Below the pieces are notes generated by a model that searched no databases, was not told where the DNA came from, and saw only the letters and a program-made list of their open reading frames with translations. A stretch of 42,504 nt of DNA from Nanobdellati archaeon (GTDB taxonomy: Archaea > Nanobdellota > Nanobdellia > Woesearchaeales > JAADFO01): assembly GCA_013152815.1 (NCBI GenBank), contig JAADFO010000016.1, forward strand, positions 1 through 42,504, given 5' to 3'. A program made the translations under genes and the position numbers. Below, in pieces: positions 6,001 to 25,234 of this stretch (position 1 is the first letter of the stretch; each line of letters opens with the position of its first letter).

Positions 6001-7733
6001 ACCTTCGGGCAGGCATGGCATCCTCTGGATTCCTCATCAACGTTACGTTTGGCTGGGGCAACCTTTCCGGAGGGAGCATCGCAGCGTTTGACCCTGGCGT
6101 CGGCATCATCGGACCTGATCTCATCCTGAAGACCAGGGTTGCCATCACCGACTATGCTGCCAGCGAGGCAGGAAACACCTACCTGGACATCACCCAGGAC
6201 ATGACCGACAACGATACAGGGACGACGAGAGTGGCTGCGGCCAAGAGCGGTGACACGGTCAAGGTCTTCAACATCCTCAACAGGACCGACATCACCCACT
6301 ATGATGAGATATCATTGCTCATCTACCCGACCGCCATCGACGCTGATCCTTACCAGCTCCTCTTCATGGCCTATAACACCGATAACGTGACCGTGCAGAG
6401 CACCCTCACCAACTACACCCTCACAAGCAGCCACCTCAACCGATGGGTAAGCATCAACATCACCGATATCGCCCATCTGCAGGACGGGTTCGGGTACCTC
6501 CGGGTCAGGATGGCTCCCAACGGTTCAGCGCTGGGCAACAACAAGAAAGTGACCATCGCCGAGATCAGGTTCAACCTCACCGACCGGACCCCTCCAAATA
6601 TAACGCTCCATGCACCTGTCCAGGGAGACAACCTCTCTTCCACGAGCACACTCTTCAACTTCACCGTCACCGACCTTGTGGATGACTTTATCACCTGCAA
6701 CGTCACGCTTGACGGGAACGTCAACCTCTCTTCTGTCGAGGTGGCCAACGGATCCTACTACAACTTCACCCGTGAGCTGAGCGAAGGCATCCATACCTGG
6801 AATGTCACCTGTATCGACGACGGCATGAATACCGCAGGCAGCGGAACCCGAAACTTCACGGTCATCGGCCAGGCCACCGGCATGACGATAACCATAGCTC
6901 AGGACAACAGCAGCCTCAACATCTCCTGGGACGCTAAAGCCTATGCCGCAGAGTACCTTCTCTACGTCTCAGATAACTATAGCATGTTCTCGACCGCACC
7001 GAACGTCACGTTGAGCACAGCAAACTATACCGACAGCTCATCGGCAGGAGTGACCCAACGGTACTATCGCATCGGCATCAGGAAAGGAAAGGCGAACATC
7101 ACCTCAACCAACACCCTGGGAAAATATCAGGTGGAGCTCCTGACCGGCTTCAACCTGGTCAGCACCCCGCTCAACCTGTCCCGCCAGCGCCTGGGAGACG
7201 AATCCCTGTACAAGAACCCGCTGGTCGTCTCTCCCAGGGGATCGGTGAGGAGCATCTACCGGTTCAACGAGAGCAACGAGGCCTTCGAGAAGGTGGACTA
7301 TCTCGACGGTTTCGGCTGGTCACAGGCGACCGGGTCAGAAGACTTCCTCTTCCTGAACAGCACCCCCGGCTACTGGTTCGAGACCAACCAGAGTGCCAAC
7401 GTAACGTTCCTCGGCATGGTTCCGACCTGGAACCACAGTGTAGCGTTGGCGGTCTCCTGGAGCGTGGTGGCATGGCATTCCATCCAATCCCCGATGCTAC
7501 CGACCTTCGGTGAGCCGCCCACCTATCCCATCGAAGTGACGCCGAGCGACTCAGTCTCCACAATATATACCTATGATGCCTGGGCAGACCACTTCAACAA
7601 GACCGACCATTACAACGGATGGGGCTGGTTCCCTGCCACAGGAGATGGCGGCTTCGTCCGGCTGGAACCGACCAAGGGCTATTATTTCAAATCAATCCAG
7701 GAATCGAACTGGACCATGGAGACCTACCGATGA
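3..7733 (+). CDS. Giant secreted multi-Ig-like surface protein with central DUF2341-like domain and C-terminal duplicated GFNLVSTPL...GYWF / W..VAWHSI...GYYF module (5' truncated by window edge)
   Basis: Frame is open from base 3 (IYTYNATITDLAHNTNSTETRTITLDNVAPK...) into the track ORF at 162, so 162 (a GTG) is not the real start. Recurrent module 'SCSLxLDGxxNxT...GNYxWxVxCTDxAGN'. 'AWWNTDYPYRQPIIINNSG...YYLYYGNSSAG' matches the DUF2341 pattern. Very many N-X-S/T sequons. Confidence 0.9.
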   Translation: MYTYNATITDLAHNTNSTETRTITLDNVAPKISFSGGTEANDSYRSRDWIYINVSIDDVALANASFLLYNSSGGLINLTVLTGAPFEANITGLDPDMQYRYNVTAEDLAGNVNSTETRTITLDNTAPGIQYEQPTPADGTNQSATIFSINVSTAETYPDTLLFYLNGSLNSSRQGYGSLENLTFPGLSDGTYTYYAWLNDSAGNSNQTASQTIRIDTTPPSISLIGPSNDSWKGNASTTVEFIYQTDDRLLSIANCSLYLDGSLNQTNQSVEQNIDQSFIQELGEGNYSWKVGCSDQVGNSNSSIEQVVRIDTTFPNITQHARNDTNISITQYLCLNATVTDSPSGISRVWARLNPPNHIAEDVRLFNNHTTSCDQSDTDDVYSVLYRVNQVGTYNWTSTYANDSGNNVQQLIAGLEWNSTSIGTITVNMTAPALNFEINESDALLNYTYNQTCTAICDDKPQNCSEVYLYAQFNFSGATDISGSTPYLVNANDSHYCGNLTAGGASCNSTFTIRSATDAGATSWKVWCRAESSIVGSYLSTERTNISINDHPLPAFTYPTNGTWLQGQESLNASLSSDDQGISTYRFELDNTTIFDSPSILCSGQDENCTFDTLSQSQCGQESYACMLRLTTTDTDGLSNSTITTIGIDNLAPRTLLGTPTDNSWSKDAAVSFSYTPTDVNIDTCIIYHNASGSFQENSSNHSVVSGKQDTTSLTFQEGTYLWNVWCNDTLQNQGFNSSNRTFHVDLTAPTIRLVSPPNTTFLLPNVTFIYNVSEHQSNISSCSLILDGTINQTNSTITLDTPINFTVNRMVDGNHSWQVNCTDYAGNENSSEGRLIRVDGTGPATVLLSPVQGMNVSSASLLLNASIDDSGGIGPNRTQFSYRENSSASWKSVCTVGIDQNAHANCTWDISLLDDRTTYEVRAQTNDSLGNDGGFDTVQNITFDRVSPLVQASSPANNTLSRDGDVVFVYNVTDTTSAISNCSLLLDGTINSTDTSISKGVNQSFSLTAMGESDYNWSVRCTDQAGNQGNASTYNLTVSYDHEPPVITLLSPAPGEIYTSEDVIFQYQANDTIYDVASCSLIVDERINQTDSSITEGTTQYFTIANMPDGNYTWMVNCTDTSPRTANEGNSSTRNLTVMKTTTLLANVTSDKTAYEQGEDARFTIKTTNQFGGAVNTSLLLHILEGNSTMAWWNTDYPYRQPIIINNSGTEQLEAGYTLNHSFDSSRLMDLGRMQAGGQDLRVVFWNNDTNNFTELDRILTSLNSSSTHVRFRIQKNISAGTLDSEYYLYYGNSSAGSPPTNKSNVFFYFDGFSQDSRSAYNQTRSFDFQGNGEDADTTLTHDSTAGQINYSGTNSNGKSLRQVTMPIRDAIIEADQYYHDIAPGAIYSRLELAARVEGDNYYYFWASTNIFDSELGRYRDGTKTQLATVNTQFTNFDVWHHLKLITYQNSSTVFLKSFVDGSPLVSYNDSDPASRISTAGGFGLGALQLVGAWDNLTVRRYMTQPPNSDNGSEERLISTLQNTTGLDGIWNTSYETLNLSIGNYSAVSRASSKGYFDGIDGTPFRIVPDTSPPAFSNIQVIPSPVWNFKDANISISIRDRAHDISQALIEGSWAGILTNDTPTNISGSSYTFSVSKENLTSGELVTYRFFANDTLDNRNNSQTFNFTVVRSLASPGIDYPAYSISRFINRTFWLNTTVLAINGSIATCQVNATYPSLLLNLSRDDQQIGSLSNGSSSTGARYLFNSSTPGSYIINISTSCLEGDGRNLSSVRIIYDPVFSNLTEDSYAELRTITGTDYLHMASGTGNDWWLNRSSGSISLDASSPDNPWYRTTWQLIINDSLTFELSDFDWDMFRSAVDEGANQSLLQAIGRIADPALRMNMTSRIFEESKVDNLSLTLQHLGSTLIKDIKVRWLIDGFNIGSNNRTDNLTFTNASGGLESYRMDGNTSLLLGPSRFNTTGITALSFHDPEIASYGYVYWEWNISKDGVKSGFESFDLRAGMASSGFLINVTFGWGNLSGGSIAAFDPGVGIIGPDLILKTRVAITDYAASEAGNTYLDITQDMTDNDTGTTRVAAAKSGDTVKVFNILNRTDITHYDEISLLIYPTAIDADPYQLLFMAYNTDNVTVQSTLTNYTLTSSHLNRWVSINITDIAHLQDGFGYLRVRMAPNGSALGNNKKVTIAEIRFNLTDRTPPNITLHAPVQGDNLSSTSTLFNFTVTDLVDDFITCNVTLDGNVNLSSVEVANGSYYNFTRELSEGIHTWNVTCIDDGMNTAGSGTRNFTVIGQATGMTITIAQDNSSLNISWDAKAYAAEYLLYVSDNYSMFSTAPNVTLSTANYTDSSSAGVTQRYYRIGIRKGKANITSTNTLGKYQVELLTGFNLVSTPLNLSRQRLGDESLYKNPLVVSPRGSVRSIYRFNESNEAFEKVDYLDGFGWSQATGSEDFLFLNSTPGYWFETNQSANVTFLGMVPTWNHSVALAVSWSVVAWHSIQSPMLPTFGEPPTYPIEVTPSDSVSTIYTYDAWADHFNKTDHYNGWGWFPATGDGGFVRLEPTKGYYFKSIQESNWTMETYR
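48..374 (+). repeat. 36-nt exact direct repeat (48-83 and 339-374), period 291 nt = 97 codons
   Basis: aacagcaccgaaacacgcaccatcaccctcgacaac occurs at both sites, encoding NSTETRTITLDN at the end of consecutive Ig-like modules. Confidence 0.9.
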
Positions 7734-10671: not shown

Positions 10672-10868
10672 TCCAGCATCACTAAGACTTCTTCACAGAT
10701 TTGATGACCAATTCTCCTCTCTTTCGTCGTTCCTTGTTCATAACACACAGATTCAAGGAGAAGGAGAGCGTCTTACAGATGACTTTCTTGTTTTGAGCCT
10801 GTTTCCCGTTTTCTTTCAGGAAAAAACGAGAATTCACGGTTTTTTTTTCTTGACAGATATGGAAAGAT

Positions 10869-10884
10869 TTATATATTAATATAT
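10869..10884 (+). promoter_or_regulatory. Putative archaeal TATA region upstream of the first array paralog, containing palindrome ATATATTAATATAT (10871-10884)
   Basis: gatttatatattaatatatgaa in an AT-rich intergenic block after a T-tract (~10850-10858). Confidence 0.5.
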
Positions 10885-10939
10885 GAATTAGTATACCGCT
10901 GTATTAAAAATTATATTGATAGCCTAAAAAAGGGATAAA

Positions 10940-11112: not shown

Positions 11113-11949
11113 ATGAAAGGGAGCATCCGTAATCGAAGTATACTGACTGTGTCAACCATGTTGGCGCTGGTCATTCTCAGTTATTTTGCCTTTGCCGTGC
11201 CGACACAGCCCACAGCTCCAGAGACACTGGACAGACGAGGAGACAGTAGGCTGGACCCGACCAACTATCCTGCGAAATCATTGGAAGCAGAAGCAGGAAA
11301 CATCACCGGAGTCTATATATTCGCGACCACCCAGACCAAGACCTGGGCAGGTTTCTACGGAAACATCAGCGGCAACATCACCTTGGACGACGCCGTGGGG
11401 AATACGTTCTATGATTGGGAAGTTGCCGAACCGAACGGAGAGGTCTACGCAGCCAACGATACGGTGAGCGACTGGAGCACCATCAGATGCATCAACTTTT
11501 CGGCAACCCCTGGAATGACCGTCAACTATGATGGAGGATTAGCAAGCACCGTCGACAATAATCCGCTCAACCTCTCCCTGTTGGAGAACGGCTTCGGCAT
11601 CACCTGGAACGACGAGGATGGTGTCAACGAGACCTTCAACACAGGAACCCATGATGGCTTCTTCGTGGGAACCATCAATATCACGGAAAACAGCTGCATG
11701 ACGACAGATACCTATCAGGACAGCCACTCCGCGGGAGATGCATTCCAGGAAGTGCTCCTGGAGGTCAACAACAGCAACACGGTCATCTTCAGCACCATCA
11801 TAGAGAACAGGGATGCGACCAACGAGACCGATGTGCGCGGCTACAACGGAGCACGACACGACTTCCAGATGCTTGTCCTGGAAGACGGCCACGACGGCCC
11901 AGAAGCTGACCTGACCACCACCTACTACTTTTATGTGGAGCTCGACTAA
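11113..11949 (+). CDS. Array paralog 1: secreted ~250-aa family ending in YYFYVEL
   Basis: Signal peptide; 'TWAGFYGNISGNITLDDAVGNTFYDWEVAEPNGEVYAAND'; 'HDFQMLVLEDGHDG...TTYYFYVELD' C-terminus. Confidence 0.9.
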   Translation: MKGSIRNRSILTVSTMLALVILSYFAFAVPTQPTAPETLDRRGDSRLDPTNYPAKSLEAEAGNITGVYIFATTQTKTWAGFYGNISGNITLDDAVGNTFYDWEVAEPNGEVYAANDTVSDWSTIRCINFSATPGMTVNYDGGLASTVDNNPLNLSLLENGFGITWNDEDGVNETFNTGTHDGFFVGTINITENSCMTTDTYQDSHSAGDAFQEVLLEVNNSNTVIFSTIIENRDATNETDVRGYNGARHDFQMLVLEDGHDGPEADLTTTYYFYVELD

Positions 11950-11986
11950 GGCGAGCTCTCTTTTTTTGCTGTTTTTTTCTTTTTTA
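11938..11986 (+). terminator. Hairpin plus T-tract terminator-like element after array paralog 1
   Basis: GAGCTCG-actaagg-CGAGCTC (11938-11958), overlapping the stop codon, followed by tctttttttgctgtttttttctttttt. Confidence 0.7.
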
Positions 11987-12009
11987 CAGCATGGACGAGG
12001 TGCGTGGAC

Positions 12010-12774
12010 ATGACCAAAAAAAGAACGCCGGCTGCGGGAAGGTTCCTGCAGGCGATCATCATCACCATCTTTCTTGCCAGTGCGCTCATCAGCATCGTGC
12101 AGGCGCTCCCCAGCGGGCCCACATTCGAGTTCATCTCCGAGAGCGAATCTCCTGTGCAGTCATCGACCCAGGACACGAACAGTTCCCATTCAGGCGGGAA
12201 GATCATCGTCGCCAACCTCAACGTGACCCAGCAGGATTCCCACTGGAAGGCCTACGTCGGAAACGTTTCAGGAAGGCTCGTCTTGGAGAACGCCAACAAC
12301 TACTCCATCTTCGAATGGACCATCACCGAAGTGACCGGAGAGGTCTATGCCACCCGAGGGAACTCAGTGAACTGGACGACGGTGGAATGCGCCAACATCA
12401 CTCATGTTGATGCCGAAGAGCTGGCCATGAACCATACTGCCAGCTACACTCCTGACGACAACATCACCAACACGTTCAGCACCGCGAACAATCACAGCAG
12501 CTTCTTTGCAGGGGCGAGCACCATCACCCAGAACAGCTGCAATTTCACCACCCAGACCTTTGTCAACGGTTCCCAACAGGTCGGAAGCACCTATTTCAAG
12601 GAGATATTGCTCTATGACGGCACCAGCATCGTCTATTCGACCTTGATGGAAAGCGACCGATACGGCTATGACACAGGATCGACCTATGACTACCAGATCC
12701 TGGTCGCCGAGAGAGGCGATCCGGAATTCTCCGGACAGAGCACGAACTATTACTTTTACGTCGAGTTGCTGTAA
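12010..12774 (+). CDS. Array paralog 2: secreted ~250-aa family ending in YYFYVEL
   Basis: ATG at 12010 (track start 12004 is GTG); 'HWKAYVGNVSGRLVLENANNYSIFEWTITEVTGEVYATRG'; ends 'NYYFYVELL'. Confidence 0.9.
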   Translation: MTKKRTPAAGRFLQAIIITIFLASALISIVQALPSGPTFEFISESESPVQSSTQDTNSSHSGGKIIVANLNVTQQDSHWKAYVGNVSGRLVLENANNYSIFEWTITEVTGEVYATRGNSVNWTTVECANITHVDAEELAMNHTASYTPDDNITNTFSTANNHSSFFAGASTITQNSCNFTTQTFVNGSQQVGSTYFKEILLYDGTSIVYSTLMESDRYGYDTGSTYDYQILVAERGDPEFSGQSTNYYFYVELL

Positions 12775-12791
12775 GGGCAGCATGCATAAAG

Positions 12792-13748
12792 ATGACATCG
12801 AGGTACTTCGGTCCCTCTGGACCGATAGCCATGGGAGCATTGATAGTGCTGGCCACTGTCCTACTGTTGACTCCGTTCTTTTTCTCGCTTGGAGAGGCCG
12901 CGTACTATGACAACACCACGGTCCTGACCCTCCTGAACGTGACCAATGTGGCTCCGACAATATCCAATGTCCTGGTCTATGACAATGACAGTCTCGTCTC
13001 CGGCAACATCATCCTGAACCAGGGGACGACAGACATCGTCTACTGCAATGCCACCGTTACCGACCTCAACGGCTATCTCGACATCATCGACTACAACGCC
13101 ACATTGTTCCATGAGACCACGACAGCCGGAGCCGCAGACCAGAACATCGACCATTACACCAATGCGACCTGCATGAACAGCACCATCAGCGGGAACATCA
13201 CATCCATAAACGTCCAGTGCACCTTCAATGTGTGGTTCTATGCCAACAACGGAACCTGGACCTGCAATGTCACTGCTTTTGACGGCAACAGCATCAATCA
13301 TAGTTCGGGTACAGAGATCATCGACCCCCTGTTCGCCCTCGACCTGAACACGAGCGTCATCGACTATGGAGAACTGGCTCCCGGTGATTCATCTGCCGAT
13401 GATGTCCCTGTCCGGGTGACCAACTTCGGGAACATGGACATCAACGTGTCGGTCGAGGGCTATGGGGTCACCCTTCATGACGGACTTGCCATGGACTGCA
13501 TCCTGGGAGACATCAATGTGAGCTATGAGAAATATGATGTCCAGCCGGGCCAGACCATCGCCAACATGTACAATCTCACCGAAAACCCCCTCATCAACGG
13601 TGTTCCGGGGCTCACCATCCCGAAGAACACGGTCGACGGTTCGAACTCCACCAACACCACGTTCTGGAAGATGCATGTCCCCTATGGAAATCCCCTAAAA
13701 GGATTCTGCAACGGAACCGTCCTGTTCTCAGCCATCGGCCCTGTGTAA
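12792..13748 (+). CDS. Secreted protein, 'YYDNTTVLTLLNVTN..P' mature N-terminus and 'CNGTVLFSAI' C-terminus; paralog of 20091..21080
   Basis: Hydrophobic signal; 'NFGNMDINVSVEGYGVTLHDGLAMDC' and 'NTTFWKMHVPYG...CNGTVLFSAIGPV'. Confidence 0.88.
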   Translation: MTSRYFGPSGPIAMGALIVLATVLLLTPFFFSLGEAAYYDNTTVLTLLNVTNVAPTISNVLVYDNDSLVSGNIILNQGTTDIVYCNATVTDLNGYLDIIDYNATLFHETTTAGAADQNIDHYTNATCMNSTISGNITSINVQCTFNVWFYANNGTWTCNVTAFDGNSINHSSGTEIIDPLFALDLNTSVIDYGELAPGDSSADDVPVRVTNFGNMDINVSVEGYGVTLHDGLAMDCILGDINVSYEKYDVQPGQTIANMYNLTENPLINGVPGLTIPKNTVDGSNSTNTTFWKMHVPYGNPLKGFCNGTVLFSAIGPV

Positions 13749-13826
13749 ATATATCCTCTGCAGTAAAGAGAACGACAGAGACAGGATATGCAGAGGACGG
13801 GACAGTCCTGCAGCAACCTACCTCTT

Positions 13827-13858
13827 TCTTATTCTTTATATCTCTTATTCTTTATATC
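13827..13858. repeat. Two perfect tandem copies of the 16-mer tcttattctttatatc
   Basis: 13827-13842 and 13843-13858 identical; T-rich intergenic region. Confidence 0.85.
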
Positions 13859-13975
13859 GTTCAGATGCTTATATCATTTAGATACCGTACCGTTCAGATA
13901 CATACAGATCGAATGAACCTCCCGAAAAGAGGCATCCCTTTGTCTTGCATGGATCTTGCATGAAGGAACCAAACA

Positions 13976-14055
13976 TTTATATACTGATTCTTACATGGAA
14001 TAAACTTATGCTGAAAATTGCAATATTTGTGCAATAGATACTTACATAGAATAAA
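13976..14055 (+). promoter_or_regulatory. Promoter region of 14090..14599: TATA-like TTTATATAC (13976-13984) and direct repeat CTTACATRGAATAAA (13990-14004; 14041-14055)
   Basis: cttacatggaataaa and cttacatagaataaa, 51 nt apart, just upstream of the regulator start. Confidence 0.6.
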
Positions 14056-14089
14056 TATCCACTGACATAATATAACAACAGGGACAACA

Positions 14090-14599
14090 GTGTCGCCAAA
14101 ATCCGGCAGAAGAGAGGACCTTGCAGCGAGATTCAGCGTTTTCCTCAGGCAGGAATATGGAGTAGAACTTGACCAGCTACTCGAAGGGCTGCAGGAACCA
14201 GAGAAAGAGACACCAGAAGTTCCGGTCTCCATCTTCTCGACCACCTTAAGCACGTTGGAGACGGTCATCAAGTACCAGAGAGAGGTCAGAGGCCTGAGCT
14301 TCTCGGCCATCGGCCAGATCCTGAAGAGACATCCTGCTTCTCTGACGACATCCTACAGACGGTCCCTGAACAAATACCCCGACAGGTTCACCCGAACCAC
14401 TTTCAAGGATTCTGTCATCAGGATACCGCTTTCCATCTTCACAGAGAAGCTCGCCCCTTTAGAAGCGCTCGTATGGTTCCTCAGCCAGGACCTGGGACTT
14501 CGGCTCTGTGACATCGCGAGAATCATCCATATAGACCAGCGGACAGCATGGACGGTCAGAGCGAGGGCAAGGAAAAAACAGAAGGAGGCGGTCCTATGA
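14090..14599 (+). CDS. Small DNA-binding protein with two tandem helix-turn-helix repeats
   Basis: GTG start. Internal duplication: 'VPVSIFSTTLSTLETVIKYQREVRGLSFSAIGQILKRHPASLTTSYRR' vs 'IPLSIFTEKLAPLEALVWFLSQDLGLRLCDIARIIHIDQRTAWTVRAR'. Confidence 0.8.
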   Translation: MSPKSGRREDLAARFSVFLRQEYGVELDQLLEGLQEPEKETPEVPVSIFSTTLSTLETVIKYQREVRGLSFSAIGQILKRHPASLTTSYRRSLNKYPDRFTRTTFKDSVIRIPLSIFTEKLAPLEALVWFLSQDLGLRLCDIARIIHIDQRTAWTVRARARKKQKEAVL

Positions 14600-15336
14600 A
14601 TCCTGCCCTGACGAGAAAGCAGGCACGCCGCCTCCTCGGCTGGATCATGGTCCTTCTCCTGGTGAGCCTTTCCCTCGGGAACGTCCTTTCCCAGAGCCAG
14701 CCTGCAGGTCCGAACATCATATCCCAGACAACTGAGACAGCCACACCGAACGCTGCACTGAACATCACCACAGCAGGAGGGACCATAACGACGATGGTAT
14801 TGAACGGGACCACCCAGAATCCCCACTGGAAGGCCTATGTCGGAAACGTGACAGGAAGGCTGGTGCTCCAGGACGGTGCGAACTACAGCATCTACAACTG
14901 GCAGCTGACCAACCCTTCAGGAGAGGTCTATGCATCACGCAACAATACCGTGAACTGGACATCCATCAGATGCGCCAACTCGACCCAGATAGCGACTGAA
15001 GAGACCAACATGAACCACACGGCAAGTGCTGTCGACAGCATCGCCAACACCTTCACCGATTCCACCCACCAGGAGTTCTGGACAGGAGGCACCCAGTTCA
15101 CTGCGAACGAATGCGGATTCACCACAGCAACCTATGTGAACAACACCAACCAGAGCGAGCTGTTCCAGGAGATAGCTCTCTACGACGGGTCCTCGATCGT
15201 CTATGCGACCATCATCGACCCGAATACCGCCGGTTTCGACTATGGACGATATGATTTCCAGCTCATCGTACCCGAGAAAGGATGGGAAGGGCCGACCTCC
15301 TCAACACCCTATTATTTCTGGGTCGAACTGGTATAA
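14596..15336 (+). CDS. Array paralog 3: secreted ~250-aa family ending in YYFWVEL
   Basis: ATGA overlap with the 14090 gene (ATG 14596), SD ggaggcgg; 'HWKAYVGNVTGRLVLQDGANYSIYNW...GEVYASR'; ends 'PYYFWVELV'. Confidence 0.9.
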   Translation: MNPALTRKQARRLLGWIMVLLLVSLSLGNVLSQSQPAGPNIISQTTETATPNAALNITTAGGTITTMVLNGTTQNPHWKAYVGNVTGRLVLQDGANYSIYNWQLTNPSGEVYASRNNTVNWTSIRCANSTQIATEETNMNHTASAVDSIANTFTDSTHQEFWTGGTQFTANECGFTTATYVNNTNQSELFQEIALYDGSSIVYATIIDPNTAGFDYGRYDFQLIVPEKGWEGPTSSTPYYFWVELV

Positions 15337-15444
15337 GAAAAGCACAGATAGAAAAGCAGATGAAAGATACGCAGTCAATAAAAAGAACTACTTAAATAAT
15401 CATTGAAATAGAGAAAGACACCATTTCTATGACGAGAGGAGCTT

Positions 15445-15536
15445 ACTGATTAAGTATTTGCTTAACTTGATTAAGTTACGAAGTTATGGAGATAATGATG
15501 TTCAGCATTTCATAAAGAGAGAAAAATTTATATATA
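15445..15536 (+). promoter_or_regulatory. Promoter/operator region of the first wHTH gene: ACTGATTAAGTA (15445-15456), AACTTGATTAAGTT dyad, TATA TTTATATATA (15527-15536)
   Basis: Direct reading; the 12-mer actgattaagta recurs at 17275-17286. Confidence 0.6.
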
Positions 15537-15688
15537 AGTCTCCATATAAGTAGAGTAAGGTGGAGAATCGTATATTAATTGCTTAATGAGGTAGTCTGGA
15601 GGCTGCAAAGTGCAGAAGATGATATCCTCGAAGCAGGCAGGAAGGCCAAAGACCATCCCCCGGGGATGGAACAGTGGATGTGGAAGAC

Positions 15689-16345
15689 ATGGACCTGGAA
15701 ACACTCTTTACAACCTCAAAATGGGAGATTCTCGAGAAGATTGCACAGCAGCCGATGAGCCCGCTCCAGCTTTCTTCATCACTGCACACCTCTCCTGCAA
15801 ATGTGAGCCAGCAGGTCAAGCTGCTGCAGATCGCCGGCCTTCTTGAGAAAGAGAAGGTCCCCACAAGGGAGACCGGCAAACCGAGAGCCCTGTTCTCGCT
15901 CAAGGATGATTTCTCCTATCTCATCAGCGTGGCAAAAGAGGGCGCAAGAAAAGGGCTCATCCCGACAGACGCGAAGAAGAGGCTCATCCTCAACTCCTGG
16001 ATGGCCGACGATGCAGAACTGGAGCAGATGGCCTTCGACTTGGCCACGGTCTTTCGGGAGAAGTTCGACGCCGTCGGCGGCGTCGCCTGGGACCCGACCC
16101 ATCATCTCCTCTTCCTGGTCATCGACGACAAAGAAAGCGCAGGGGCAGAGATCGAGAGCATGAGAGACAGCACCCTACGGAACCATCATCATCTGCAGGT
16201 GCTCGACAGGAAACGGTTCATCTCCCTCCTTGAGGAGAGTGCATCTGACCAGGAGAACAGCAGAGAGAACCAGGACAACCCGATACAGCTTCTTGTGATC
16301 GACAGCCACATGGCAGAACAGATACGAGACCAGCACGGAAGATAG
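15689..16345 (+). CDS. Winged-helix (ArsR/MarR-like) transcriptional regulator
   Basis: 'MDLETLFTTSKWEILEKIAQQPMSPLQLSSSLHTSPANVSQQVKLLQIAGLLEKEKV...' wHTH; paralog of 17597..18247, and alignment to MELETLF favours ATG 15689 over GTG 15674. Confidence 0.85.
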   Translation: MDLETLFTTSKWEILEKIAQQPMSPLQLSSSLHTSPANVSQQVKLLQIAGLLEKEKVPTRETGKPRALFSLKDDFSYLISVAKEGARKGLIPTDAKKRLILNSWMADDAELEQMAFDLATVFREKFDAVGGVAWDPTHHLLFLVIDDKESAGAEIESMRDSTLRNHHHLQVLDRKRFISLLEESASDQENSRENQDNPIQLLVIDSHMAEQIRDQHGR

Positions 16346-16360
16346 AAGAAGGAAACGGGG

Positions 16361-17158
16361 ATGCAGCGGATGGACAGAAGTTCAGCGATGATGAAAGGGA
16401 AGAAAAGGGAGACGATGAAAGCTTCCTTCCTGCTTCTGGTCGGCATGTTTATCCTGGTCTCCGCATCGTTCGACGCAGCGGCAGATCCTGTCGCTCCGAC
16501 GACGCTCTCAGAGATCTCAAGCTCGACCAGGACATTTCCCGGAGGGAACAAGACCACCAACGCGACAGCAGGATATCTTACCGAAGTGAAGATAGAGGGC
16601 ATCGCCGTCGTCACCGAAGGCTGGCAGGGCTACTACGGCAACATCAGCGGGGAAGTGATCCTGGACGACGCTGACAACAATACGCTCTTCTCCTGGAACC
16701 TCATCTCGCCGGGAGGGGAGATCCTGGCCATACGGAACAGCAGCGTGGACTGGTCCAGCGGACAGGTCAGCTGTCCTAATACCACCCACATCAGCACCGA
16801 GAACACGCTCATCTTCCCGGGGATCTATGGCGACGACACCGATAACCTCACCAACACCTTCAACGACACGACCCATCCTGCTTTTTCCATCGGAAGCAAC
16901 AGCTTCTCAGCAGATAAGTGCAACTATTCTCTCGCTACCTATGTCAATGACAACGCCGACACGGCAAGGACCTTCAATGAGACCCTGCTCTATTCAGAGA
17001 ACACCAAGACCATGATCTATGTGGGACTGATCAATCCGAAACAGGAAGGGTTCAAGAGCGGCACCGACAAGCATGACTTCCAGATGCTGGTCGGAGAGGA
17101 CGGACACGGCAACAATGCCACCACCAGATACTTCTTCTTTGTCGAACTCAATCCATAG
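16361..17158 (+). CDS. Array paralog 4: secreted ~250-aa family ending in YFFFVEL
   Basis: 'WQGYYGNISGEVILDDADNNTLFSWNLISPGGEILAIRN'; 'HDFQMLVGEDGHGNNATTRYFFFVELNP'; 15 nt after the wHTH stop. Confidence 0.9.
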   Translation: MQRMDRSSAMMKGKKRETMKASFLLLVGMFILVSASFDAAADPVAPTTLSEISSSTRTFPGGNKTTNATAGYLTEVKIEGIAVVTEGWQGYYGNISGEVILDDADNNTLFSWNLISPGGEILAIRNSSVDWSSGQVSCPNTTHISTENTLIFPGIYGDDTDNLTNTFNDTTHPAFSIGSNSFSADKCNYSLATYVNDNADTARTFNETLLYSENTKTMIYVGLINPKQEGFKSGTDKHDFQMLVGEDGHGNNATTRYFFFVELNP

Positions 17159-17274
17159 ATCAGAGGGCATTCCCTGACCTGAGATCGATTGGCCGACCTG
17201 ATCGATCGGCAGGCTCGTTCTTGAAGCGGATGATGGCGCAGACGTATCTGAAAAGGATCGAAACACACCGTTTC

Positions 17275-17440
17275 ACTGATTAAGTAATCATTAAAGTTAA
17301 TTAATCACACAATCATATCACTTCTCGACGACAGAAAAGTCACGATAAGAACAGACAATACTTAAGCAAGTATTGAAATTATTAAATCTGATTTCTTAAT
17401 TATTGACAGCAATTAACAAATAATCGAAATATTTATATAT
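17275..17440 (+). promoter_or_regulatory. Promoter/operator region of the second wHTH gene: ACTGATTAAGTA (17275-17286), CAATACTT-AAGC-AAGTATTG dyad (17356-17375), TATA TTTATATATT (17431-17440)
   Basis: Perfect 8-bp inverted repeat; 12-mer shared with the 15445 region. Confidence 0.65.
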
Positions 17441-17596
17441 TAGGGGCACCAAGAGTACATCAAGGTATGAAATTGTATACTGGGAGTGGACTTCCAAAAA
17501 CCCCTGGTCTTTCAGCCTGACGACGATTTTCCACCGACAACGTCCCTGGTCTGAACGAAGCATCAGACAGCATAGCGACAACAGAGGCCCACAGTA

Positions 17597-18247
17597 ATGG
17601 AACTAGAGACCCTCTTCACAACATCCAAATGGGAGATCCTGGGAAAGATCTCTCAGAGACCGGCCAGTCCTCTCCAGCTTTCCGCCCAACTCTCCACCAC
17701 CATAGCCAACATAAGCCAGCAGATACGGCTCCTGGATGTGGCCGGGCTTCTCGACAAGAAGAAGATCTCCACCAGGGAAAGCGGAAAGCCCCGCACCCTG
17801 TTCTCTGTGAAGGACGATTTCTCATACCTTATCCTGGTCTCTGCAGAAGGGGCAAAAAAAGGGCTCATCAAGGTCAGCAGGTCGAAACGGCTCATCATGA
17901 ACGCCTGGCTGAGCAAGGAACAGGAGACAGAATCCATCGCCTACCGCGTGCACGAACAGCTTGCCGACCAGCTCGGCTCTGTCAGCGCGGTGGTGCATCA
18001 CCGGAAGAAAAGAGAGCTCATCATCGTCTCGGATAGTCAAAAGGAGCTCGCACGGGACATCGAGAGGCTGAGAAAGAGCGTGTCAGGTCTCACCCAGAAG
18101 GTGAGGACCATGGACACCAAGGAATTCGTCTCTTACCTCAGGGCCCTTCAGGTGACCGACATCAATGATCTCTTCACGGTCCTTCTCCTCGACCATGACA
18201 TCACAGGAAGATTGCAGAGGAGCGGAAAAGAGGAAAGGGAGACATGA
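17597..18247 (+). CDS. Winged-helix (ArsR/MarR-like) transcriptional regulator, paralog of 15689..16345
   Basis: 'MELETLFTTSKWEILGKISQRPASPLQLSAQLSTTIANISQQIRLLDVAGLLDKKKISTRESGKPRTLFSVKDDFSYLI'. Confidence 0.87.
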   Translation: MELETLFTTSKWEILGKISQRPASPLQLSAQLSTTIANISQQIRLLDVAGLLDKKKISTRESGKPRTLFSVKDDFSYLILVSAEGAKKGLIKVSRSKRLIMNAWLSKEQETESIAYRVHEQLADQLGSVSAVVHHRKKRELIIVSDSQKELARDIERLRKSVSGLTQKVRTMDTKEFVSYLRALQVTDINDLFTVLLLDHDITGRLQRSGKEERET

Positions 18248-18272
18248 GCAAGAGACGATCGGAGAGAGGAAG

Positions 18273-18380
18273 ATGAGATTCAACCACAGCATAAGCAACG
18301 CATTCGTAGCGGCTATGGAACAGCGGACCTTCCAGCGGCTGAAAAGTCTTTCCCTGGACCGCAGACAAACGAAAAGGTGA
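18273..18380 (+). CDS. Possible 35-aa small protein (MRFNHSISNAFVAAMEQRTFQRLKSLSLDRRQTKR) between regulator and paralog 5
   Basis: Linked to the wHTH gene through a 10-codon ORF (18244-18276) by two consecutive ATGA overlaps; ends 6 nt before 18387. Confidence 0.4.
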   Translation: MRFNHSISNAFVAAMEQRTFQRLKSLSLDRRQTKR

Positions 18381-18386
18381 TGGTGT

Positions 18387-19133
18387 ATGAAAAGAAACGA
18401 ACTGATGATAATCCTGATGGTGGCGGTGACCGTGATGACTGCCTATACGGTCATGGCAGACCCGAACATACCTGCGGTGCTCAGCCAGCTCTCTACGAGC
18501 ACCCGGACCATCGATGGTGCGAACAAGACCAATGACGCTCTGGCAGGGAACCTGACAGAGATCGCCATCGATGACACCAAGGTCACCCAAGGGTGGCAGG
18601 GCTACTACGGAAACGTCTCAGGGACCATCGTCCTCGACGACGCCCTCAACAACTCCATGTACACCTGGGACCAGAGTTCAGCGAGCGGAGAGATCTATGC
18701 ATCGAGGAACTTCAGCATAGACTTCTCATCGGGACAGATCGTCTGTGCTAACACAGCCAACGTGAGCATCGAGAACACAGCCATCTTCCCGGGAACCGCG
18801 GGAAATGATGCTGATAACGTCACCAACACGTTCAGCCAGACCACCCATCCGGAGATCGTCGTCGGATCGAACACCATAACGGCAGATTCCTGCTCATATA
18901 CCCTGTCGACCTATGTCGATGATGCAGCAGACGCGACCAGGACCTTCAACGAGACCCTGCTCTACTCCAAGAACATGAACAGCATCATCTATACAGCGAT
19001 CATAGCCCAGGACGCTGAAGGGTTCAAGTCCGGGACCGACAGCCATGATTTCCAGATGCTGGTCGGAGAGGACGGGCACAGCGGCGACACGGCAACAACG
19101 ACGTATTACTTCTACGTCGAACTCAGCGCATAA
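18387..19133 (+). CDS. Array paralog 5: secreted ~250-aa family ending in YYFYVEL
   Basis: 'WQGYYGNVSGTIVLDDALNNSMYTWDQSSASGEIYASRN'; ends 'TTTYYFYVELSA'. Confidence 0.9.
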   Translation: MKRNELMIILMVAVTVMTAYTVMADPNIPAVLSQLSTSTRTIDGANKTNDALAGNLTEIAIDDTKVTQGWQGYYGNVSGTIVLDDALNNSMYTWDQSSASGEIYASRNFSIDFSSGQIVCANTANVSIENTAIFPGTAGNDADNVTNTFSQTTHPEIVVGSNTITADSCSYTLSTYVDDAADATRTFNETLLYSKNMNSIIYTAIIAQDAEGFKSGTDSHDFQMLVGEDGHSGDTATTTYYFYVELSA

Positions 19134-19233
19134 GGATACTGAACAGAAAAAAAGACCGAAAGGTAAGAACGAAGAGAACAAGCGAAGAGAACAGGAACAC
19201 AGAACAGAAAACGAATGACAACGTGAACGGTTG

Positions 19234-19983
19234 ATGAGGACGCGGTCAGAGCTTCAGATAGGAATAGTGACAGTGATCGGGCTAGCTGTCGTCCTCAGCA
19301 TCGCCGGCAGCCTTGTATGGGCTGCACCGGGCAACCCGGCCGGATTCGAGGTGGTCGGATCGTCGAGACGGAACACGACCTTCCCGACCGCGTCGGTGGA
19401 GGCGATCGCCGGAAACGTGACCGAACTGAGGATAACAAGCACCACGACGACCAAGACATGGGCAGGATACTACGGGAACGTCACCGGGACCATCGTCCTC
19501 GATGACGCCCTGAACAACTCCATGTTCAGCTGGAACCTTGATGAAGCAGCAGGAGAGGTCTATGCGGCCAGAGGATCGGTGGACTTCAGCAGCGGAAATA
19601 TCATCTGCGCCAACGCAACGCACATACAACAGGAGGAGAACAACTTGAGTGTCAGCCCAACAGCGAAGGACGGAGTGAACGAGACCTTTGCCTATACGAC
19701 CCATCCTGCCTTCATGGTAGGCGATGCGAGCTTCAGCAGCGACCAATGCGGGTACACGGCATCCACCTATGTCAACGATGGCGTGGACAGCTCGAGGACC
19801 TTCAACGAGACCCTGCTCTATGACAAGGCGGACAATCTCACGGTCTACATGGCGCTCCTGACGAGCAAACAGGACGGATTCAAGATCGGGACCGACAAGT
19901 ACGATTTCCAGATGCTGGTCGGAGAGGACGGCCACGGCAACACCGACACGACGACCTATTACTTTTATGTCGAACTGCAGTGA
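19234..19983 (+). CDS. Array paralog 6: secreted ~250-aa family ending in YYFYVEL
   Basis: ATG 19234 (track start 19231 is TTG); 'TWAGYYGNVTGTIVLDDALNNSMFSWNLDEAAGEVYAARG'; ends 'TTTYYFYVELQ'. Confidence 0.9.
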   Translation: MRTRSELQIGIVTVIGLAVVLSIAGSLVWAAPGNPAGFEVVGSSRRNTTFPTASVEAIAGNVTELRITSTTTTKTWAGYYGNVTGTIVLDDALNNSMFSWNLDEAAGEVYAARGSVDFSSGNIICANATHIQQEENNLSVSPTAKDGVNETFAYTTHPAFMVGDASFSSDQCGYTASTYVNDGVDSSRTFNETLLYDKADNLTVYMALLTSKQDGFKIGTDKYDFQMLVGEDGHGNTDTTTYYFYVELQ

Positions 19984-20090
19984 AAGGCTGAAAAAACCAG
20001 ACAAAAAGCAAGAAAGCAGACAAAAAGCAGAGACAGGACAGGAAATCAGGGAACAATCACAGACGACCAGGAGGAAGTGAACAGACCAAG

Positions 20091-21080
20091 ATGAGAACCC
20101 GACAGACAGGCACCGAAAAGCAGGAAAAGAAGAGATACAGGACACAGCTCTTCCTGACCCTGGGACTTCTCCAGCTCACGCTCCTCGTCCTGCTCCTCCT
20201 TCCCAGCCCTCAGACGGTCATCGGCCAGACCTACTACTCCAACACCACGGTCCTCACAAAACTCAACATCAGCAACGCAGCACCCATCGTCTATAATGTC
20301 TTCATCTACGACAATGATTCTCTGGCCGGAGGCGACATGATACTGACTCCCGGGACCACGGACAGGATATTCTGCAACGCCACGGTCAACGACAGCAACG
20401 GCTGGACCGACGTCAACATATCCAACGGAACCCTCTTTCATGCAGGGAATTTCAGCGACCCCAACGACAACAATGTACGCTATGAGAACACCTCCTGCAG
20501 CATCATGCAGAACAACGGATTTGCCGACAGCGCTCTGGTCACCTGTTCGTTCGAGGTGTACTTCTACGCCGATGCCGGAGCGTGGAACTGCAGCATCGAA
20601 GCAGAGGACAATTCCAGCGTCTCAGACCAGGCCTTCGCCAATTCCACCAAGACCATCGCCCAGCTCTATGCCATAGACCTGGACACCGCAGTGGTCGACT
20701 ATGGGGTCCTGAACGTGACTGAGGTCTCGAGTCCTACGACTGTCAACATCACCAACGCAGGGAACATGCACATCAACCTGAGCGTGGAAGGCTATGGGTC
20801 ATCGCTCCATGACGACCTCGCCATGAACTGCTCCAAACAGAGCACCATCGCTGTCGGTCTGGAACGCTATGCTCTCACAGCAAGTGCGAACTGGAGCGTC
20901 AACATGACCCCTTTGACGAGCAACCCGCTCACGAACGGCATCGGGAACCTTACTATCTGGCAAAACGAGGACGATCTTGGGAATTCGACCAACACGACCT
21001 GGTGGGCGATCAAGGCACCCATAGGAGCCGAGTCAGGCGCCTGCAACGGGTCATTGGTGTTCTCAGCGATACCTGCTTAG
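20091..21080 (+). CDS. Secreted protein, paralog of 12792..13748
   Basis: 'TYYSNTTVLTKLNISNAAPIVYNVFIYDNDS'; 'NAGNMHINLSVEGYGSSLHDDLAMNC'; ends 'CNGSLVFSAIPA'. Confidence 0.88.
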   Translation: MRTRQTGTEKQEKKRYRTQLFLTLGLLQLTLLVLLLLPSPQTVIGQTYYSNTTVLTKLNISNAAPIVYNVFIYDNDSLAGGDMILTPGTTDRIFCNATVNDSNGWTDVNISNGTLFHAGNFSDPNDNNVRYENTSCSIMQNNGFADSALVTCSFEVYFYADAGAWNCSIEAEDNSSVSDQAFANSTKTIAQLYAIDLDTAVVDYGVLNVTEVSSPTTVNITNAGNMHINLSVEGYGSSLHDDLAMNCSKQSTIAVGLERYALTASANWSVNMTPLTSNPLTNGIGNLTIWQNEDDLGNSTNTTWWAIKAPIGAESGACNGSLVFSAIPA

Positions 21081-21159
21081 GCAGGAGAGACATCGGCAAC
21101 AGGCAACACAATCAACGGCAACAACCAATAACGATCGACAGGAACAGAGAACAATCACC

Positions 21160-21957
21160 ATGAAACGAACCAGACCTGAGGTGGGACCAATGAAATGGAT
21201 CAGAATAGGGAGAGGCTTCACGCTGAGCCTCGTCATCGGGATATTTTTGCTATCGCTCTTCGCGATCTGGACAGTCGCCGATCCCGTCGGACCCACCCTC
21301 AACTACATCTCCCACTCGTCTGGTTCCTCTGCCACCGGTTCCCTGGCAGACAACAGCTCCCACACAGGAGGTGTCATAGCGAAGATGAATCTTGATGTCA
21401 GGCAGCAGAATCCCCACTGGAAGGCCTATGTCGGAAACATATCAGGCAACCTTGTATTGGAGGACGGGTTCAACTACTCAATATATGAATGGTCGCTCAC
21501 ATCGCTGCAGGGAGAGGTCTATGCCACCCGGGCATCGAGCATCACCTGGGGCAGCCTGACCTGCGCCAATATCAGCCAGCTGGATATCGAGATGGCAGCC
21601 ATGAACCACACACCCAGCTATACGCTGGTGGACAACATCTCAGCCACGTTCGATGACGATGCCAACAGCCACGCCCAGTTCTATGCCGGATCGACAAATA
21701 TCGCGGCCAACAGCTGTGATTTCTCCACCAACCTCTATGCCAACGATACTGCCCAGAGCGCGGGAGGTTCAACATGGGAAGAGGTCGTCCTGTTCCAGCA
21801 GAGCAACAATGCGACGGTCTACACGAGCATCATCGACGAGAACAACTACGGCTACGCCAACGGCTCGTTCTTCGACTATGAGATCCTCTTGCCAGAGAAA
21901 GGGGAGCCTACCTTCACCGGTGCGACGCCATATTACTTCTATGTGGAGCTGGTCTAG
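21160..21957 (+). CDS. Array paralog 7: secreted ~250-aa family ending in YYFYVEL
   Basis: 'HWKAYVGNISGNLVLEDGFNYSIYEWSLTSLQGEVYATRA'; ends 'TPYYFYVELV'. ATG 21190 is an alternative start. Confidence 0.9.
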   Translation: MKRTRPEVGPMKWIRIGRGFTLSLVIGIFLLSLFAIWTVADPVGPTLNYISHSSGSSATGSLADNSSHTGGVIAKMNLDVRQQNPHWKAYVGNISGNLVLEDGFNYSIYEWSLTSLQGEVYATRASSITWGSLTCANISQLDIEMAAMNHTPSYTLVDNISATFDDDANSHAQFYAGSTNIAANSCDFSTNLYANDTAQSAGGSTWEEVVLFQQSNNATVYTSIIDENNYGYANGSFFDYEILLPEKGEPTFTGATPYYFYVELV

Positions 21958-22516: not shown

Positions 22517-25234
22517 TCACCGACGGCCTCTTCCCGCTGTTGTCTTCTTCCCTGACCGCTTCGCCGCTTCTGTCTTCTGCACGACCTCGAGGGCGAGTCT
22601 CATCCTTTCGAGCGCCTTCTCATTCTCACGCTTATCGATGAAGAAGTCACGGAGAAGACCCATCTTCTTCACCAGCGGCCTGAGATCTTCCCGATCCGCG
22701 GCGATCTTCTGCAAGATGCCCTGGTCGAGTATCCTGGTGAGCAGTGCCAGTGAAGCCGACTCTGCTTCATGCACATCCTTGCCCTGGACCCGATGTTTCG
22801 CCAGCCGAATGAGCTCGTTGTAGAGAGCGGTGAGCTGGACCGATGCAAGAAGCTCGTCCTTCTGCCTGAACAGGTCATAGATCCTGCTGGTCAGCTGGAC
22901 CTCTACCTCCCGGATGGAAGTCTCCTCCATCCGTCGGAGCATGGCAAGCCGGTCGGCATGCCCCTGCAGAAGGTGTTTCATACGCAGCACTTTCCGGGAT
23001 TCCACATAGCCGAAATAGAGCAGCAACTCATAGAACAGCAGAGGGATGACCAGGATCAGGAAAAGGGGCAGCCATATCAATCGCTGGACCACATAGAGAC
23101 AGCTGCCGTAGAGCCAGAGATAGAGCGAGAATACCGAAAGGATGAACAGGAGGAAGCCTAAGAGAGATGTGAGACGCTTGGCACGCTGCTCAAGCCGCCC
23201 CTTTCGATAGACTCCAAGGCGGTACAGGGTATAGTTCATGACCAGCAGGATGAGAAAGAGCAGGAGGAAGAGCAAAGCGAAATAACGGAAGAACCTCAGG
23301 GGGAAGACCCGGCAGTCCTGCATGCAGCCGCAGCCTTCTCCTGCTGAGCAGATCCCGTCCCCGCAACCCACGAGACCAGGATGTTCAAGGAAAGGATAGA
23401 GCGGATATTGGGTGATGGGAGCTATGAGGCAGGCTGCACATGGCCCGCCGCAGTCGATGCCTTCCTCTCCCTGGTTCTGGATGCCGTCGCTGCAGGTGGG
23501 TGCAACACAGGCACGAACTTCTTCGGGCTTTTCCGGACCCTCGATCTTGAGGGACTGGCCAGACCTGAGCGCGTTGGAATGTTTCTCATCACACCTGCTG
23601 GAATCGGTGCATAGCCTATCCTGAGAACCTGCAGTGCAAGGTCCCCAGTCAGTACAGGTCCAGTTCAGCACACAGACACCGGGGATGTGCTGCTTCTTGA
23701 TGCCTGCTCCTTTGCTTCCGGAAGCGCTGGTGGCGCTCTGGCCAGAAGTCTCGCCCGTCGTGCTTTCCTGGGATTCGCCCGTGCCTTCGACGCCTCCGGT
23801 GTCACCGCCAACGCCGCCTGTGGCATCCCCTGCCTCGTCTCCTGTACCCGGGGGGCATGTCCCGCAGTCCTGGGGACAGGAATAGCAGGATTCACCGATG
23901 AGGACAGAGGAACAGATGTCATCCCCGCAGACAAGCGCAGGGAAGATGGTCATGACGATGGTCTCGGTCACGTTGTAGTAGGTGTCGGTAACTCCCAGAA
24001 TGATGCTGTGCTGGCCTTCCATGGCAGCGGACGGGACAAAGGATATCACCCCTGTCACGTTATCGATGGTGAAGAGCGAGGAATTGGTGAAGAAGGTCAG
24101 GGTATCATTGTCTGCATCGGTCGCATTGAGGTCAAGGTGCACACCCAGCCCCACATAGGCCTCCTGGTTCCCGATGGGACTGAGGATCGGGGGATGGTTG
24201 CTGAAAAGGATCGTCAAGAGGAAGGTTGCAGAGGTGCAGTTGTCGAAGGAGCCTGAATCGTCACAGGCAGTGATGTTGATGGAGTGGTTGCCTATCTGTT
24301 CATCAGCAGGGGTAAAATTTATCAGGCCGGTTGATGGAGAGATGTTGAACAGGGTGGAATTATCGAAATAGGTCAGCGTATCGCCGACATCGATGTCAGT
24401 AGCATTGATGTCATAGATGAAGAGGTCCCTCGCGCGGACGGTCCTGTTCTCAAGAGGCGGGTCGAAGAAGGGACGATCGTTGACGTTGACCACGATGAAG
24501 GTGATGTTCTTGGAATCGGTGAGCCCGAAGGCATCGGTCACGACGACGCTGATGGAATGGACGCCCACATCATCGTTGGTCGGTGTGAAGTTGATCAGCC
24601 CGTTCAGGGGATCGATGGTGAAGAACGTCGCGTTGGAACTGAAGGCATAGGGATCGTCGTTCGGATCGGTGGCATTCACATCATAGGTGTAATGGACATC
24701 TTCAGTGGAGTTGAGCAGGTCATCGATGGACAGGACAGGGGGATAGTTCCTGTCCAAAGAGACGAATTGGAAAGCGGCAGAGATCCAGGTGAAGTTGAAG
24801 AACCGTCGGGTGGGATTCCCATCGATGAAAAAGGTGATGTTCTCTCCGGTCACCGCTCCTTCGTCCACCGAAGTCCCTGCATCGTCTCCGTTGCAGGAAA
24901 GCAGCCCAAAATAGCCGTCGTGCACCATGGTGAAGGAACCGCAGAGCACCCCGTCGCCATCATAGGCAGTGATCATCGTTCCCGAAGAGACGACGCTTCC
25001 GTTCTCGGTGACATTTCCGTAGAACTCGGTCGCGATGGGAGGATATGCAGACACCGACAGGGAGAGGATGATAAGCAGGAGTGCAAGAGCAAGCAGGAGG
25101 GGTCTTCCTGACGTCATCCTTGTTCTCCCAAATGACCTGGAGGAAGCGAAGAACAGGGAGCGTCCTTGCTTCTTTCGGGGTGGGTTGTTGCCGTTCATTG
25201 GTGTGGCCATCTGCAGATCCTTAGACAATCTCAT
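22517..25234 (-). CDS. Large membrane-anchored surface protein: cadherin/He_PIG-like repeats, Cys-rich and thrombospondin-like segments, TMs, cytoplasmic coiled-coil
   Basis: Repeated 'LTYFDNSTLFNISPSTGLINFTPADEQIGNHSINITACD'; 'WTCTDWGPCTAGSQDRLC'; 'CSDGIQNQGEEGIDCGGPCAAC'; multiple hydrophobic segments; basic helical tail. Confidence 0.85.
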   Translation of the reverse strand: MRLSKDLQMATPMNGNNPPRKKQGRSLFFASSRSFGRTRMTSGRPLLLALALLLIILSLSVSAYPPIATEFYGNVTENGSVVSSGTMITAYDGDGVLCGSFTMVHDGYFGLLSCNGDDAGTSVDEGAVTGENITFFIDGNPTRRFFNFTWISAAFQFVSLDRNYPPVLSIDDLLNSTEDVHYTYDVNATDPNDDPYAFSSNATFFTIDPLNGLINFTPTNDDVGVHSISVVVTDAFGLTDSKNITFIVVNVNDRPFFDPPLENRTVRARDLFIYDINATDIDVGDTLTYFDNSTLFNISPSTGLINFTPADEQIGNHSINITACDDSGSFDNCTSATFLLTILFSNHPPILSPIGNQEAYVGLGVHLDLNATDADNDTLTFFTNSSLFTIDNVTGVISFVPSAAMEGQHSIILGVTDTYYNVTETIVMTIFPALVCGDDICSSVLIGESCYSCPQDCGTCPPGTGDEAGDATGGVGGDTGGVEGTGESQESTTGETSGQSATSASGSKGAGIKKQHIPGVCVLNWTCTDWGPCTAGSQDRLCTDSSRCDEKHSNALRSGQSLKIEGPEKPEEVRACVAPTCSDGIQNQGEEGIDCGGPCAACLIAPITQYPLYPFLEHPGLVGCGDGICSAGEGCGCMQDCRVFPLRFFRYFALLFLLLFLILLVMNYTLYRLGVYRKGRLEQRAKRLTSLLGFLLFILSVFSLYLWLYGSCLYVVQRLIWLPLFLILVIPLLFYELLLYFGYVESRKVLRMKHLLQGHADRLAMLRRMEETSIREVEVQLTSRIYDLFRQKDELLASVQLTALYNELIRLAKHRVQGKDVHEAESASLALLTRILDQGILQKIAADREDLRPLVKKMGLLRDFFIDKRENEKALERMRLALEVVQKTEAAKRSGKKTTAGRGRR

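Follow-up and report, generated by a model that had tools for sequence, protein, structure and literature searches.

A conserved four-unit locus for putative surface proteins in DPANN archaea, with candidate operators for two regulator families

The window analysed here, contig C16 (JAADFO010000016.1, 42.5 kb in its full length), belongs to a 1.49-Mb archaeal genome whose nearest named relatives are Candidatus Woesearchaeota, Nanoarchaeota and other DPANN archaea. An array at positions 11113–21957 comprises seven secreted members of one protein family (A1 to A7) and two of a second (B1 and B2), with three regulator genes among them: T, encoding a tandem helix-turn-helix (HTH) protein, and W1 and W2, encoding winged HTH (wHTH) proteins. 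The layout is of the type A-A-B, T-A, W-A, W-A-A-B (Table 1). The GTG-started T gene ends in the ATGA which opens A3. Fifteen nucleotides (nt) separate W1 from A4 and 139 nt separate W2 from A5, the first gene of a longer run, A5-A6-B2-A7, headed by W2. The A1-A2-B1 unit has its own promoter and no linked regulator. A first-pass annotation of this DNA had described three regulator–paralog pairs, and we recovered them all, including the ATGA overlap and the 15-nt gap. Its further claim that each regulator-first unit drives a single paralog holds for T-A3 and W1-A4 but not for W2. No description of this locus was found in the literature searched.

The gaps upstream of T, W1 and W2 (341, 352 and 438 nt respectively) are AT-rich (59–64%, with peaks of 78–82% over 40 nt), carry short repeats and contain a TTTATATA TATA box at 13976, 15527 and 17432, in agreement with the earlier assignment of an AT-rich promoter to each regulator. 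A scan of all gaps in the array detected one more TATA promoter, before A1, and none inside the runs, including the 97-nt gap before A6. Therefore the array likely forms four transcription units: A1-A2-B1, T-A3, W1-A4 and W2-A5-A6-B2-A7.

Candidate operators were obtained by phylogenetic footprinting, with strong k-mer signals found ahead of the T and W genes of relatives. In the case of T, the consensus is TACTTACATAATAAGTA, usually present in one to three copies, often two or three, of one orientation (70 of 73 sites share it). This site was found in 39/47 T promoters compared to 3.1 in shuffled sequences; W and A promoters had it at about background level (Fisher test, 1.8e-21). Its position is also constrained: CTTACAT lies 13–16 nt after the TATA start in 16 cases for 0.8 expected, with a peak spacing of 14 nt. 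Allowing at most one mismatch, the only matches in the source genome are the two copies in the T promoter of the array.

Upstream of genes for short T proteins with a single HTH, we often observed near-perfect palindromes, TACTTACATTGTAAGTA, in at least two copies. A strict rule linking single-HTH T to perfect palindromes and tandem T to asymmetric sites was rejected, since some tandem T genes carry perfect palindromes. Perfect TACTTACATTGTAAGTA palindromes also occur at three loci where no T gene was detected close by (L217, L218 and L219, in G013:C7, G033:C42 and G051:C33), which points either to unrecognised T genes or to other targets.

The W operator, with consensus GATACAAAAgcGTATACTG, is a GTATAC-N6-GTATAC-type dyad of fixed spacing. 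Among promoters of W genes at the head of A-A-B-type operons, 25/36 had it (0.6 in shuffles), as did 25 of the 79 regulator-less A promoters (0.55 in shuffles) and a single one of 47 T promoters. In relatives, the distance from the TATA start to GTATAC is 43–44 nt for W promoters, and for A-A promoters it is exactly 11 and 23 nt. The window was ranked with a position weight matrix built without its own sites. The best score fell in the W2 promoter, with GTATAC 43 nt after the TATA start, and the second-best in 42.5 kb fell in the A1 promoter; there GTATAC follows the TATA start by 23 nt, which is one of the fixed A-A spacings. In the W1 promoter the copy is degenerate, with GTATAT at a distance of exactly 43 nt from the TATA start, as in relatives. 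Only two exact matches to the joint W pattern exist genome-wide, and T and W sites are confined to these promoters in the source genome.

Presence of the W site follows the type of W recognition helix. For the ANxSQQLRLL type, the site was found in 20/29 W promoters, compared to 0/9 for the other type. Similarly, unlinked A-A operons carried it in 12/12 cases when the W of the genome was of the ANxSQQLRLL type and in 0/5 with the other type. We take this as an indirect sign of W binding. Given the split by helix type and the fixed 11- and 23-nt spacings, the best explanation is that W controls an A-A-B operon unlinked to it, in addition to its own.

Other elements accompany some W promoters. 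In many W promoters of relatives, a further conserved element, TTACAGTAATTAA-like, lies about 25 nt before the TATA box (at about 17403–17416 in the window). A conserved GC-rich hairpin directly follows the W operator in one W subgroup (L089, L100, L101 and L107; for instance CTGATGAGG...CCTCGTCGG), and the W1 promoters of L089 and L094 carry, at a similar place, an inverted repeat GTGTGGA-N4-TCCACAC which may be a diverged operator. We also considered an RNA element in the W leader. Several genomes have long leaders, and some leaders fold well; they were nevertheless too variable in length and sequence for such a claim.

The T protein (169 amino acids) contains two HTH repeats, as judged by alignment. 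Pfam HTH matches are weak, a PDB search pointed to sigma-factor-like HTH, and no family model matched above its cut-off. About a dozen T-family matches with in-frame TGA had looked like recoding; these proved to be ordinary stop codons overrun by the alignment. W1 and W2 are the sole W genes of the source genome and belong to the ArsR/MarR-like wHTH superfamily: W1 is above the Pfam HTH_5 cut-off (23.2 for 22), W2 matches HVO_A0114 and HTH_34, both under cut-off, and the AlphaFold2 (AF2) fold and PDB matches agree. The W2 model is confident (predicted local distance difference test, pLDDT, 91.8), and among solved folds it is closest to Phr of Pyrococcus furiosus (PDB 2p4w, E 1.2e-6). Membership in ArsR/SmtB metalloregulators was not found: W1 and W2 have no cysteine, carry an extra domain and score 27.3 and 19.0 bits with NF033788 for a cut-off of 55. 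The C-terminal part of W might have held a degenerate nucleotidyltransferase domain, but the fold search did not show one. W1 and W2 are sister genes (support 100/99) with very similar recognition helices, and their own sister is the single W in the main array of the nearest relative. Since A4 and A5 are also nearest each other on the A tree, the W1-A4 unit is, by these phylogenies, a lineage-specific duplicate of a W-A unit.

A1 to A7 form one family with 33 invariant columns in alignment and are its sole full-length copies in the genome. Each has 8–11 N-glycosylation sequons, two cysteines and a hydrophobic N-terminus. Neither A nor B gave a convincing match to Pfam or to a solved structure. 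The AF2 model of A5 had no match in the PDB or in a viral library; a known surface or pilin fold thus found no significant sequence or fold support for family A, and therefore we do not claim TasA-like or pilin-fold resemblance. The A tree splits deeply in two: an alpha group of first-position A, and a beta group that joins second-position A with T-linked A. Position classes change 39 times on the tree compared to 92.7 with shuffled labels. Subtypes that keep so steadily to one position point to distinct structural roles more than to coats that could replace one another. A6, the second A of the W2 unit, falls with the alpha copies of the window's own family, so local conversion or duplication occurs.

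Linkage of regulators to A genes was surveyed in 60 genomes of the same order, relatives being the check that the first-pass annotation had itself proposed. An A gene lies directly downstream on the same strand for 16/26 W matches and 13/66 T matches. The same gene order is present in named DPANN genomes and was found across Woesearchaeota and other DPANN. The fullest relative (L089) shows A-A-B, T-A, W-A and W-A-A-B; L094, L102 and L085 are similar. Linkage is thus conserved, and its recurrence indicates that the layout is more than chance. Away from the array, T genes often directly precede long secreted, sequon-rich proteins, a descriptive finding at loci partly chosen by eye. In relatives, T-family genes also often run into the beginning of genes for very long secreted proteins, rich in sequons and unrelated to A (for instance L055, 9462–9995; L070, 4164–4532; L073, 19115–19468), which suggests T as a general marker of surface operons in DPANN.

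We propose, as the probable reading, a conserved four-unit DPANN surface locus in which T and W act as repressors. Both head their operons and have conserved sites in their promoters in the proportions given above, as local autoregulators do. T would bind the two sites of its own promoter and repress the T-A3 unit, a closed feedback module in which A3 translation would be coupled to T by the ATGA overlap; T is thus best read as a self-contained autoregulator of A3. W2 would bind the GTATAC-type dyad located shortly after its unit's transcription start, and autoregulation of that operon is again the best reading. A second target would be the A1-A2-B1 promoter, where the dyad lies between TATA and the start; W2 probably co-regulates that unit. 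Acting on both dyads, one W regulator would keep the two A-A-B operons repressed jointly; presumably by way of the W C-terminal domain, a signal would then lift repression. W1-A4 would be a tandem duplicate of the W2-A5 pair with a diverging operator. As T-linked and W-linked A are mostly of different old subtypes (beta and alpha), the two circuits would set independent doses of different subunit types rather than choose among equivalent coats. A broader version, to which we give equal weight for and against, is a DPANN-wide surface code: tandem-HTH T proteins, each coupled in translation to the surface gene that follows it and acting on oriented TACTTACAT-type sites of its own promoter, and a W regulon of scattered A-A-B operons, would together set independent subunit doses in these mostly symbiotic archaea.

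Several observations weigh against the four-unit repressor model. The T site is absent from 8/47 T promoters, W genes heading a single A carry the W operator in only 4/14 promoters, and the W1 site of the window reaches 7.0 bits only. Since the recognition-helix types correspond to clades, Fisher tests overstate the independence of the cases. Two genomes, each about 90% complete, have W-like sites in A-A promoters, strong in G006 (30.7 bits, G006:C45, about 22897–23697) and weaker in G017 (16.5 bits, G017:C36, about 19036), and no W gene was detected in either even by profile search. Finally, repression is deduced solely from site position.

T and W could instead be activators of their own units: fixed promoter spacing is typical of activators too, and W promoters carry the further TTACAGTAATTAA-like element upstream of TATA. 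Both kinds of sites are however downstream of TATA, overlapping or past the start, where archaeal sites usually block the polymerase, as with Phr, and we consider activation unlikely. Fixed distance to TATA of both T and W elements would equally suit core-promoter or 5′-leader RNA elements, with T and W acting elsewhere. In W promoters the dyad is within the transcribed leader and could form a short hairpin. Yet each element is specific to its own promoter class within the same genomes, the T site is palindromic and in several copies, and the W dyad of A-A promoters lies between TATA and the start, hence untranscribed or partly transcribed. Moreover, site presence tracks the W recognition helix and no Rfam match was obtained for the leader RNA. 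This explanation, too, seems to us doubtful.

The first-pass annotation had gone further and took one dedicated regulator per paralog to suggest switching or mutually exclusive expression. In a model of this kind the three units would be expressed one at a time as alternative coats, for example by cross-repression among T, W1 and W2. The regulator-first units with separate promoters fit such a scheme, and the near-alike recognition helices of W1 and W2 could allow cross-binding. But W2 heads A, A, B and A, and the W operator is also found at A1-A2-B1; given this distribution, an exclusive switch with one regulator per surface protein is too simple. Matches to the T site in W or A promoters, and to the W site in T promoters, were not clearly more frequent than expected by chance, so no T–W cross-repression circuit is visible. 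The locus does not have the features of phase variation either, with no long inverted (invertible) repeats around the promoters and no hypermutable simple repeats, and the A subtypes are old, stable and position-specific. We therefore hold this model to be unlikely, exclusive switching as such finding no support here; the earlier interpretation as a whole is partly supported, in its regulator-first units with promoters of their own, conserved in relatives.

Phr, the heat-shock regulator of P. furiosus, combines an ArsR-like N-terminal wHTH with a C-terminal domain, the same kind of architecture as W; it is autoregulated and represses from sites at the transcription start. However, W sequences are far under the Phr family cut-off (12.4 and 16.4 bits for 320, NCBIfam NF053602), superposition is poor overall (template modelling score, TM, 0.38–0.41), and W is linked to surface genes instead of heat-shock genes. 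AbfR2/Lrs14-type biofilm regulators of Sulfolobus are wHTH proteins tied to archaeal surface phenotypes; they match W weakly (21–25 bits for an Lrs14 cut-off of 90), and W has an additional C-terminal domain. T resembles sigma-70 region-4-like or homeodomain-like HTH proteins weakly and in the HTH only, and has two HTH repeats with no other sigma-factor region. To our knowledge, almost nothing is known of gene regulation in DPANN archaea, whose surfaces are thought to mediate host attachment. Two conserved regulator–operator pairs, with sites and spacing defined exactly, make testable circuits of a formerly vague locus and may offer a handle on signals controlling host-contact proteins, while T genes may serve as pointers to surface operons across DPANN.

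Among described systems with two sites in their own promoter, as with the candidate T sites, is Stf76 of the Sulfolobus plasmid-virus pSSVx, a small winged-helix protein recognising both (PMC4027180). Stf76 is however a single wHTH of 76 amino acids from a plasmid-virus, whereas T has tandem HTHs of a different kind and heads a cellular surface gene. Islands of signal-peptide proteins, likely surface or pilin components, have been reported as DPANN dark matter (PMC6393860); the regulator–operator architecture of the present array is absent from the part of that description considered here.

Table 1. Genes, TATA boxes and candidate operators of the array, in window positions
Feature	Position	Strand	Remarks
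TATA box of A1-A2-B1 unit	10868..10875	+	TTTATATA in AT-rich gap
Candidate W operator, A1 promoter	10879..10904	+	ATATATGAATTAGTATACCGCTGTAT; 13.6 bits
A1	11113..11949	+	surface paralog, alpha type, first A of A-A-B unit
A2	12004..12774	+	surface paralog, beta type, second A
B1	12792..13748	+	second secreted family, conserved after A-A
TATA box of T-A3 unit	13976..13983	+
Candidate T operator, copy 1	13986..14006	+	GATTCTTACATGGAATAAACT; 16.5 bits; CTTACAT 14 nt after TATA start
Candidate T operator, copy 2	14037..14057	+	GATACTTACATAGAATAAATA; 22.3 bits, best in window
T	14090..14599	+	tandem HTH regulator; weak Pfam HTH matches, PDB search, alignment repeats
A3	14596..15336	+	surface paralog, beta type; ATGA overlap with T
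TATA box of W1-A4 unit	15527..15534	+
Degenerate W operator, W1 promoter	15558..15583	+	GTATAT
W1	15689..16345	+	ArsR/MarR-like wHTH plus C-terminal domain; sister of W2
A4	16361..17158	+	surface paralog, alpha type, nearest to A5
TATA box of W2 unit	17432..17439	+
Candidate W operator, W2 promoter	17463..17488	+	AGGTATGAAATTGTATACTGGGAGTG; 19.4 bits
W2	17597..18247	+	ArsR/MarR-like wHTH plus C-terminal domain; AF2 model, fold match Phr 2p4w
A5	18387..19133	+	surface paralog, alpha type; AF2 pLDDT 87, no PDB match
A6	19231..19983	+	surface paralog, second A of W2 unit, groups with alpha copies
B2	20091..21080	+	secreted family B; no promoter in preceding gap
A7	21160..21957	+	surface paralog after B; no promoter in preceding gap

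Next to the array, an open frame of 2576 amino acids at 3–7733 runs off the start of the window; it is rich in sequons and repeated domains and is probably a giant surface protein.

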